Origin: Bolinopsis microptera
Taxonomy: Eukaryota > Ctenophora > Tentaculata > Lobata > Bolinopsidae
Direction: 5' to 3'
Assembly (NCBI RefSeq): GCF_026151205.1
Contig: NC_087084.1
Location: forward strand, 658,312 to 722,311
DNA: 64,000 nt
The notes below the pieces were generated by a model. The model saw only the letters and a list, made by a program, of their open reading frames with translations. It did not search any database and had not been told where the DNA came from. The translations under genes and the position numbers were made by a program. This document shows positions 8,189 to 50,600 of the stretch, piece after piece (the first letter of the stretch is position 1; each line of letters starts with the position of its first letter).

Positions 8189-8697
8189 CTTCATTTCCTC
8201 TCCCTTGCATCTGCAGGACTATAAGGGCAGTGTAACTAAGTAAGTAAGTAAGTAAGTAAGTAACTATAACTAACCAGTATGTTTTAAGTTGTGATGAAGG
8301 AGCACAAACTCCAGCTCTGCTATGTAGAGAGAGGTAGAGATAGAGGGGACTCGGGTACTCATACTGTCCACACAGAGACACCCAGCTAGAGACAGAGCTG
8401 GGTAAGAGGACAGCTCCACATCCTTCCAGTCACTGAGAGGGGCCGGGAGTGAGAACTACATACTTCTACATGCTTCATACTACATACTACTGTAACAAAT
8501 AGAGGAGAATAAGGAGAACACAATACAGAAGTGAGGAAGCAAATAGAGGAGACTAAGGGAGTAGTAAAGAGACTCACAGCACTACATCATCTCCAGTGTG
8601 TTCACTGCCGGAACTCTTCTCCTCCCAGATCTCCACATCTAGTTCCATGTGTACTCTCCACTGGCTAGCTTCTACACCACCACCCGGCAACTCAAAC
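8189..8697 (-). CDS. VPS13-like gene, exons 8578-8697, 8275-8432, 8189-8218
   Basis: Phases out are 2, 1, 1. The first exon continues ITWR with [20 protein letters not shown] and [19 protein letters not shown]; its donor GTGAGT is a perfect consensus. The second reads [17 protein letters not shown], then [20 protein letters not shown]. The third is a 30-bp micro-exon (LQMQGRGNE) with donor GTTAGT and is the least certain. The acceptor chosen for the first exon, GTGGCTAG at 8698-8699, is the only one giving the right phase, and every unit of the 42-bp array carries it. No later exon was found before the 22-bp array, so the 3' end of the gene is unknown. Confidence 0.5.
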
Positions 8698-47600: not shown

Positions 47601-50600
47601 AAATGTAAAACACAAGAATATATTTTATAAAGGAAAATGTAAAACACAAGGATATATTTTATAAGGGAAAATGTAAAGCACAAGGATATATTCTATAAAC
47701 GACGATTTAAAAACATCATTGAGAATCTTTAAAACATGCAGATATTTTACCAACGTAAAGTTACGAGACATGTGCGATTTATAATATGATAAATATTATT
47801 ACTGTTATGATAAACTTATAAACTTACTGGTGGTAAAGGGGACGCGAGGCCACTGAACAGTAACACTCAATAAACTGGGTACCACGTGTACATCACGAGG
47901 TTGCTCCAGCGACCTGAACAGATTACTTACTAATTACTCACTAATTCATAATTTGTTTACTTATTAACATCAGTTACTAAATTTTGTTACCAAATTTTTA
48001 AATTCAAATTTAATGATTAATTGACTAGTGAGTAGGAGTACTAGATAATACTAGGTAGTAGTTAGTAGTGAGTAGTGAGTAGTACCTGTATACATCTTTC
48101 GTGAAGTAGGGCCCAGATAAAATGCATACCGCCTCATCCGCTGTAACGAAATAATTGTTAGTACATGTACATAGTTTAGTTTTTTAGTTAGTACAAAGTT
48201 CATATCCATTGTTCATTCTCGTTGTAGTCTCTGACATTTAAATAATTTATGTTTTCCACAATGATTTTACAGCGGCAATTTGTTAATAAAAAAATAAATA
48301 GCGAGAATGAAATAAATCTGATCAGCTAACCAAATAATAAGCCAATTAAAAAGCAATCTATACTAAATAAGGCCCCATGTAGCCTCCAGGCTCGACAAAC
48401 CCCGCAAAATTCAGTGTGCAACGTTTGCCTTAATAGATCAGTCAGTCACTGAGTGCACAACTGAAATGCCCCCCCCCCCCCCCCCTGTATATTTATCAGG
48501 AGATAATAAATAATTAAACATACTAGATTTGTAGAGAAAGAGCCCCCCCCCCCCTGTATATTTATCAGGAGATAATAATAATAAATAATTAAACATACTA
48601 GATTTGTAGAGAAAGAGCCCCCCCCCCCCCCCCCCTGTATATTTATCAGGAGATAATAATAAATAACATACTAGATTTGTAGAGAAAGAGCTCAGCGCCG
48701 CGCAGTGTCAACATAGCAGAGTTTACAACAGTAGTTTGACAATACTTCATCCCAATGTGCGAAACACACAGTTCTACACTCAACTGCTCTTCTGTGATAT
48801 ACAGTGTTATTAACTAATTAACTAATTAACTAATTAACTAATTAACTAATTAACTAATTAACTAATTAACTAATTAACTAATTAACTAATTATAAGTATC
48901 AAATTAATCGTTGTTTTATTAAGCATTAAAAATTTTTTCTAAAGGGGGTTCCCCTTAAAAAAATCCGGGGGTTTTTAAATTTTTTTTTTCTTTTTTTTAA
49001 AAAAAAAAAGGGCCCTCAAAAAAATCCTGCCCCCTTAACCCCATTTTTTTCAAAAAACGGGGGAAAAAAAACCCTAAACCTTTATCTAGAGTTTGCGGGG
49101 GGAAAAGTTTTTTCGGGAGGGGGGCGGTTTGTTTTAACTAAAAAAACCCCAAAAGGAGTTTTGGGGGGCTTTTTGTTTTGGGGGGCAGGTCAAACCCTAT
49201 ATTAGAGTTTGGGGGGGGGTTTAAGTGTTCTGGGGGGGTGCAGTTTTAAAAATTAATTTACTAAAAAGGTTTTGTGGGTTTTGGGTGTTTTTGAGTGCAG
49301 GGGGTTCAAAAACCTTTTTAAATTAGGGGGGTTGGGTTTGGGGGGTTGTTTTTTGGGATTTGGCGGTCCCTTTTGTAACAAACTCCCCCCCAAAACCCCA
49401 CCCCCACCCCCCAAGTTGAAAAGGGCCCATTAGTATGGGGAAGGGGATAGGAGAGGGGGGGGGGGATTGTGGTTTTGAAAAAGGGCTTTTAGTTTTTTTC
49501 GGGGGGGAAAACTTTTAGGGCCCGGCCCTTTTTAAACCTTGCATTGGGGGGGAAAAACCCTTAAAGGGGAAAGGTTAAAATGCGGGTCGCACTTCTAAAA
49601 AAAAAATTTTGTTGTGGGGGACCTGGGGGAAAAGTAACCACTTTTTTAGTGCACCTTTCAAAATTAAACCCTTTTCCCCCTTTGGGGAAAACCCAGAGGG
49701 GATCATTTTAAAATTCCCCCATTTTACGCCTTTTTTAAACCCTTGAAATTGGGGGGGGAAAATTTTGGGGGGGAAAAATTTTCCCCAATGTTAGTAAAAA
49801 CTTTTAATTTAAAAAAAATTCCCCCATTGGGGAAACCCCTTGGGGGGGAAAGTTTCCCGGGGTTAAAGGTCGCCCTTTTAAAAAAACCCTTTTCCCTTGG
49901 GGGTTTTTAAATGGGGGGAAAAGTGGGAAAACTGTTGGGTTCGCATTTTTCAAATAAAAAAAACCCTTGAAATTGGGTTTTAACCCTGGGGGGAAGAAAC
50001 CCCCAACTGTTAGTGAATTTCAAAAATTAAACCCCTTGGGCCAATTTGTGGGGGCCTGGGGGAAAGTTTAAACCTTTTTAGTCGCATTTTTAAAAAACCC
50101 CTTGGCATTGGGGAAACCCCCGGGGGAAAAGTTTTCCTGTTAGTCGACCTTTAATAAAACCTTTTTTGCATTGGGAAAACCCCTTTGGGGGAAGTATCAT
50201 TTGTTTAGTCGCATTTTCTTAAATAAAACCTTTGAAATTGGGGAAAACCCCCCTTGAGGGGGAAAATTTTTTTTGGTGGGGGCCTTATAAAAAACCCTTG
50301 GGGCATTGGGGGCCCCCTGGGGGGAAGGGGTTTTTCCGGGTTTATTTGGGCCATTTAAAAACCCTTTGGGCATTGGGGAAAAACCCTTAAAGGGAAGTAT
50401 AAATTTTTTATTTGGCATTCTAATAAAATTTGGGCCTTTTGGGGGGTTTAACACCTAAAGGGAAGTTTTAAATTTTTTTTATTTTGCACTTTTTAAAAAA
50501 AAAACCCCTTGGGGAAATTGGGGAAAAAACCTTTGGGAAAAAAGTTTTCCACTGTTAGTCGCCCCTTTTAAAAAAACCTTTTGAAATTTGGTGGAAAACC

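Follow-up and report, generated by a model that had tools for sequence, protein, structure and literature searches.

Minisatellite arrays overlapping predicted splice junctions in a gene region of the ctenophore Bolinopsis microptera

Introduction

Tandem repeats that cross exon–intron boundaries have been described in amphioxus, where so-called mirages are minisatellite-like copies with units of 10–160 bp that span intron/exon boundaries at donors as well as acceptors. The available part of the source reports them in Adh3 and in the globin genes BflGb6 and BflGb9, gives 3 and 6 units for two haplotypes of BflGb6, and attributes an Adh3 mirage showing somatic instability to a 2002 publication (PMC3087553). 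Mirages in PGBD5 and troponin C are described in excerpts of another report (PMC3902484). Here we examine the arrays of a minus-strand gene region, hereafter the host gene, in a window of 64,000 nucleotides (the whole stretch of DNA that was analysed) from the ctenophore Bolinopsis microptera (GCF_026151205.1, contig NC_087084.1, positions 658,312 to 722,311 of the forward strand). The assembly analysed has 264.65 Mb in 232 contigs, and all coordinates below are those of the window. Ten predicted splice junctions of the host gene lie inside or at arrays whose unit carries exon sequence, and these arrays are probably ordinary minisatellites that overlap splice junctions by chance, in the arrangement known as a mirage. 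The host-gene arrays are genuine and striking examples of an already described phenomenon.

As in the amphioxus mirages, the repeats span the exon–intron boundary (at ten junctions here), both 5' and 3' boundaries are affected (five donors and five acceptors), and AG/GT signals are found on many units (in the six arrays examined here). Unlike in amphioxus, the host is a ctenophore, ten boundaries are affected in one gene region, the arrays reach 159 copies, and the case is made from sequence alone. A first-pass annotation of this DNA had presented the arrays as a new description of how introns grow, a claim anticipated by the boundary-spanning minisatellites that the available parts of both amphioxus papers describe (PMC3087553, PMC3902484). 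In the literature searched we found no earlier ctenophore report of such arrays, and there the term mirages was used only for amphioxus.

Related arrangements are known from potato and human genes, cited here from partial texts. In potato RdRp, an intron was gained by a tandem duplication crossing the intron–exon boundary, with splice signals that come from the copies, as they do here; the potato intron was shown to be new against relatives, whereas here existing introns are enlarged and seen in one genome (PMC4974935). Human genes in segmental duplications contain variable internal tandem repeats at exon–intron boundaries with a mean unit of 30 bp. These have about 4 copies on average, were compared between paralogues and led to a proposal of intron formation, whereas the arrays here are far larger (PMC2812944). 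Human UBC and VCX3A are tandem-repeat genes with dual-specific splice sites, and expansions of such repeats are argued to be mild since they can be removed by splicing (PMC10809524). A splice site on each repeat unit is common to these genes and to the present arrays, but the UBC repeats are coding, with the whole unit between sites, whereas here the arrays are intronic and AG|GT is found on the unit at 4 of the 10 junctions (46109, 29270, 12338 and 8711) and is missing at 48672, 43136, 41244, 28885, 28088 and 11446.

Results

The exons of the host gene form two chains on the minus strand, with edges predicted from reading frame and phase rather than from transcripts (Table 1). Besides the ten arrays whose unit includes exon sequence, an eleventh has a 21-bp unit whose first base is the donor GT of 45171, without exon sequence. 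Copy number across the junction arrays ranges from 2 to 159, and the 45-bp array at donor 41244 results in an intron of 7308 bp. The array at donor 46109 is interleaved with (AGGTAACC)n, and that at donor 29270 has an extra partial copy near 29135. Every overlapping array contains a single intron edge, and intron 22 carries two separate arrays, one per end. Arrays were called with Tandem Repeats Finder (TRF), retaining the best-scoring row alone where rows overlapped, and two stretches were set by hand: the array at donor 28885, where TRF does not call one array, and the overlap at acceptor 11446, where the TRF array stops at the junction.

These arrays bear out much of the first-pass annotation, which had at least nine exon edges amplified together with their splice site. 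Nine of the ten edges it listed carry exon sequence, and 45171 carries none. Two of its acceptors are relocated, 11449 to 11446 and 8697 to 8711, as 8697 breaks phase, and acceptor 12338 had been missed. Its range of 3 to ~160 copies is accurate at the upper end (159), and at the lower end the value is 2.

Whether junction overlap needs a special cause depends on how often it is expected by chance. Under a geometric null, the probability that an array overlaps a junction is about 2(p-1)/(I+p-1), where p is the unit length and I the collapsed intron length; as run over 29 introns, overlap was counted at 4 bp or more, with p-4 in the numerator. With arrays collapsed, the introns of the two chains are short (median 192 bp, 29 introns), so units of 31–232 bp often span a junction by chance, and under the null a junction is covered about 40% of the time for the unit lengths seen. 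With the TRF calls, 9 of the 15 arrays with units of at least 30 bp overlap a junction, where the null predicts 6.5 (P=0.13). Seeding at junctions would give a peak in array coverage there, and none is seen for such units in the host gene. Coverage in exons is 4.2% at 61–100 bases inside, 8.8% at 21–40 and 16.5% at 1–10, and in introns it is 17.3% at bases 1–10 and 23.3% at 61–100, with both hand-set stretches included in the profile. The first-pass annotation had held that randomly placed repeats would not produce this pattern and that the arrays were seeded on junctions, possibly by junction-targeted amplification. Neither proposal is supported, given an overlap near the geometric null, a small excess in a preselected gene and coverage without a junction peak.

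The sole array wholly within a chain exon lies at 46455-46515 and has a 15-bp unit, a multiple of three, in 4.1 copies. A telomere-like interstitial array, (TAGGGT)58, is found within an intron at 30905-31249.

As a control we used 174 kb of DNA in 12 blocks around myosin-head model hits, a small and non-random set. The 73 hits gave 40 Pfam pairs and 38 introns, two having been dropped for weak sites, and in these 38 Pfam-supported introns 0 of 28 arrays overlap a junction, with 0.7 expected. A home-made gene finder, used for counts only, predicted 128 introns in 15 genes, which mostly include the myosin introns. It was trained partly on the first chain and the 38 myosin introns and recovered 32 of the 38 exactly, so this figure is not independent; on the host gene it returned 16 of 22 training exons exactly, plus false exons inside arrays. 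Genome-wide junction enrichment had been suggested as a check of the first-pass proposal. Run on the 12 blocks against the geometric null, this check covered 57 intronic arrays in the 15 other predicted genes; 2 of the 57 span a junction vs 4.2 expected, and with units of at least 30 bp, 2 of 4 do so vs 1.1 expected. No junction peak in coverage is seen in these genes either, where the bin from -100 to -61 has no value; for units of at least 7 bp, coverage is maximal at intron bases 21–60 and declines at 61–100.

Two of the control blocks contain amplified donors. In block L058, the myosin model matches a motor-domain exon whose donor edge, CAG|GTAGGA, lies on a 40-bp unit present in about 22 copies, and in block L056 a 31-bp unit in 4 copies bears another donor; junction-overlapping arrays are therefore not confined to the host gene. 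TRF arrays cover 48% of the window vs 9.5% of the 174 kb of other gene DNA, and the window is an array-rich extreme.

The exon-bearing units measure 75, 75, 45, 63 and 42 bp and also 41, 52 and 80 bp, with irregular spacings of 88/128/144 bp at donor 46109 and 165/228 bp at donor 28885. The period is a multiple of three in 5 of the 10 overlapping arrays (75, 75, 45, 63 and 42; the others are 232, 80, 152, 52 and 41) and in 1 of 5 non-overlapping ones (36; the others are 34, 31, 31 and 40). These numbers are too small for a multiple-of-three rule, and the reading frames also speak against one. In 6 of the 11 arrays the exon-side copy alone keeps the frame open, while distal copies close or shift it: 1 of 3 copies is open at 48672, 1 of 6 at 46109, 1 of 3 at 28885, 1 of 23 at 43136, 1 of 2 at 12338 and 1 of 7 at 11446. 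A unit that is a multiple of three is thus no general protection of the gene. Acceptors 28088 (2 of 4 open) and 8711 (10 of 51) are intermediate, and at the remaining donors the open copies number 120 of 155 at 41244 (in phase), 13 of 13 at 45171 and 2 of 2 examined, of about 3, at 29270. The motif counts of this test (155 donors, 23 acceptors) are lower than the unit counts (159, 24) because stricter strings were used. From these frames, the use of distal copies in splicing is predicted to be often harmful. The first-pass statement that all units with exon sequence are multiples of three was selective, with units of 41, 52 and 80 bp also present. The alternative proposal of that annotation, that selection tolerates only splice-neutral arrays, comes close to the conclusion reached here.

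The splice signals themselves are well kept. In the 45-bp array the exact signal string is found at 158 of 159 anchors, in the 42-bp array at 51/51, and in the other four of the six arrays examined at 24/24, 4/4, 6/7 and 5/6, so the decoy sites are not being purged. Frequent variants occur at four or five sites each within the 45-, 42- and 75-bp units, and two variant sites of the 45-bp array are near 50:50 among its 159 units. Such unit variation is as expected of an expanded, homogenised minisatellite.

Table 1 Junction arrays and predicted exons of the host gene, in window coordinates
Feature	Position	Strand	Unit and copies	Exon sequence on unit
Array, donor 48672	48469..48691	-	~75-bp unit x3, variable G run	20 bp
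Array, donor 46109	45498..46146	-	irregular 144-bp unit, 6 exon-edge copies (own included)	38 bp
Array starting at donor 45171	44906..45170	-	21-bp unit x12.6	0
Array, acceptor 43136	43072..44873	-	75-bp unit x24	65 bp
Array, donor 41244	34121..41279	-	45-bp unit x159	36 bp
Array, donor 29270	29169..29341	-	80-bp unit x2.3	72 bp
Array, donor 28885	28465..28921	-	3 exon-edge copies, 228 + 165 bp apart, CT runs between	37 bp
Array, acceptor 28088	28075..28284	-	52-bp unit x4	14 bp
Array, acceptor 12338	12330..12410	-	41-bp unit x2	9 bp
Array, acceptor 11446	11447..12027	-	irregular 63-bp unit, 7 exon-edge copies (own included)	~27 bp
Array, acceptor 8711	8690..10829	-	42-bp unit x51	22 bp
First chain, exons 1-6	48791-48672, 48140-48086, 47913-47828, 47222-47099, 46542-46418, 46269-46109	-		
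First chain, exons 7-12	45341-45171, 43136-42987, 42740-42651, 42417-42324, 41957-41824, 41368-41244	-		
First chain, exons 13-17	33935-33812, 33650-33580, 32868-32744, 32539-32418, 32226-32093	-		
First chain, exons 18-22	30284-30171, 30023-29921, 29794-29675, 29477-29270, 29043-28885	-		
Exon extending first chain	28088-27978	-		
Second chain, exons 1-8	13595-13519, 13291-13179, 12338-12234, 11446-11287, 11110-10963, 8711-8578, 8432-8275, 8210-8189	-		

The first chain, from 48791 to 28885, joins 22 exons into 904 codons without a stop, and its introns are GT..AG in 21 of 21 cases. Alternative sites were weighed at three acceptors and one donor, and the choice that keeps phase was taken. The exon at acceptor 28088 is in frame with this chain and extends it. 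The second chain, from 13595 to 8189, has eight exons in a single open frame with a terminal stop codon. Seven of the eight were predicted exactly by the gene finder, which was not trained on them, and the last was predicted as 8210-8191; the edges of this chain were finalised by hand after that run. Phase breaks across the ~14 kb separating 27978 from 13595, and because phase does not link the two positions, either undetected exons would lie in between or the chains would be two genes.

Within these ~14 kb, plus-strand open reading frames (ORFs) match 7tm_1 (rhodopsin-type receptor; 26318-27493) and Laminin_G_3/Pentaxin (22258-23157), and the minus strand has two copies, ~5.8 kb apart, of one translated segment, a dispersed repeat (15715-15917 and 21475-21677).

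The first-pass annotation had labelled the host gene VPS13-like. Searches with the exons read, which leave out the 5' part of the gene, gave this label no support. Two joined exon pieces matched 0 Pfam families at E<=10 (E<=1 was also tried), in a search that drops most matches above about 0.1; in PDB each had one match, at E=0.16 and 1.6, both to unrelated proteins; and a search of a protein collection with the joined exons, in which 7992 candidates were scored, gave no homologue at E<=1. On these exons the VPS13 name appears unsupported rather than excluded, and it is not used here.

Upstream of the first exon read, an ORF at 53064-54386 has an RVT_1 (reverse transcriptase) domain. Between it and the gene, a stretch from 48950 to 49800, perhaps to about 52300, is homopolymer-rich and seemingly garbled and resembles poor consensus or gap filling; the letters were examined to 49800, and the further part was judged from ORF translations. 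Two other large arrays lie in the window. A 22-bp unit in 140 copies (4045-7119) starts inside the end of an AA_permease_C ORF (3326-4051, plus strand) and is possibly another gene-edge array, and a 52-bp unit in 151 copies (56133-64000) reaches the window end.

Discussion

We consider random local duplication, followed by tolerance in introns or over junctions and then by expansion, to be the probable origin of these arrays. Local duplications, tens to a few hundred bp long, could arise anywhere in the gene. Duplications internal to exons would mostly be purged by selection, and those that are intronic or include one exon edge would be tolerated, as an intact own edge still flanks the exon and surplus copies can be spliced out. 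Unequal exchange or slippage would then expand and homogenise the array, giving the observed structure of as many as 159 copies. Splicing would have to pick the exon-adjacent copy in many arrays, because the distal ones introduce frameshifts or stop codons.

Several results weigh against this explanation. After hand correction of the 63-bp array, 10 of 15 arrays with units of at least 30 bp overlap a junction in the host gene vs 6.1 expected (P=0.03); a gene-wide version of the null gives 9 of 15 vs 5.6 (P=0.04), and pooling the host and other genes gives 12 of 19 vs 7.2 (P=0.016), all P values being optimistic as the host gene was chosen post hoc for its pattern. Long units may thus have a modest junction preference, up to about two-fold. 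Arrays with units of 7–29 bp overlap no junction, in 0 of 9 cases in the host gene (about 0.9 expected) and 0 of 53 in the 15 other predicted genes (3.1 expected); with about 4 expected in all, this absence is one that simple geometry fails to explain. In addition, the predicted frames at donors 41244, 45171 and 29270 are compatible with the use of distal copies, and the choice of copy there is not decided by frame. The modest long-unit excess and the short-unit absence at junctions are left unexplained by random duplication and tolerance. A stronger proposal would be that long-unit duplications favour junctions (~1.6-fold in the pooled set) and short-unit arrays avoid them, that exon edges are a preferred start of intron growth and that, of up to 159 near-identical sites, the exon-side one is routinely the spliceosome's choice; we find this doubtful. 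The long-unit excess, together with the two further amplified donors in genes identified through the myosin model, would also suit junction-targeted amplification, in which the seed duplications are made at splice sites by R-loops, co-transcriptional nicks or template switching. Such targeting is unlikely, as coverage lacks a junction peak both in the host gene and in the 15 other predicted genes, the short-unit arrays of those other genes overlap no junction at all, and the excess is small and comes from a preselected gene.

The arrays could instead mark the birth of introns rather than their growth, if AGGT-bearing exon segments had been tandemly duplicated. AG|GT is present on the units at four junctions, and three introns collapse to 110-128 bp, although small array-free introns of the host gene match that size (126-161 bp). 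We regard intron birth as quite unlikely here: six of the ten junctions have no AGGT, each array holds one intron edge, so that single-copy intron sequence, including the other splice site, persists, and in none of the junction arrays tested do both splice sites come from copies of one duplicated segment. It is very unlikely that a long-read assembler invented or multiplied the copies. The available part of the assembly's description states that it was built with wtdbg, gap filling and pilon, and from about 48.95 kb upward the sequence resembles poor consensus. Against an artefact stand the structured variants among copies, with two sites near 50:50 in 159 units, and boundary arrays at no fewer than three distinct genomic loci; the published amphioxus cases, as far as the available text goes, rest on two haplotypes and RT-PCR (reverse transcription PCR). 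Exact copy numbers are nevertheless provisional, being those of one assembly. Translation of the arrays as exons encoding in-frame protein repeats is extremely improbable. Parts of the 45-bp and 75-bp arrays do form long open frames, and most copies at donor 41244 are open (120 of 155), but some or all distal copies lose the frame in 8 of 11 arrays, including 35 of 155 even at that donor. In the 45-bp array, moreover, the two strands are both open across one stretch of 1889 codons, so the open frames there simply reflect a unit that lacks stops and is a multiple of three in length.

If transcripts confirm normal splicing, the host gene would offer a natural experiment in how competing splice sites are chosen: near-identical copies, up to 159 donors after an exon and 51 or 24 acceptors before one, would compete, and the exon-side copy is often the sole useful one. 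Mirages would then extend to an animal lineage distant from amphioxus, and their occurrence in compact genes would need short introns and a high minisatellite rate, and no targeting mechanism.

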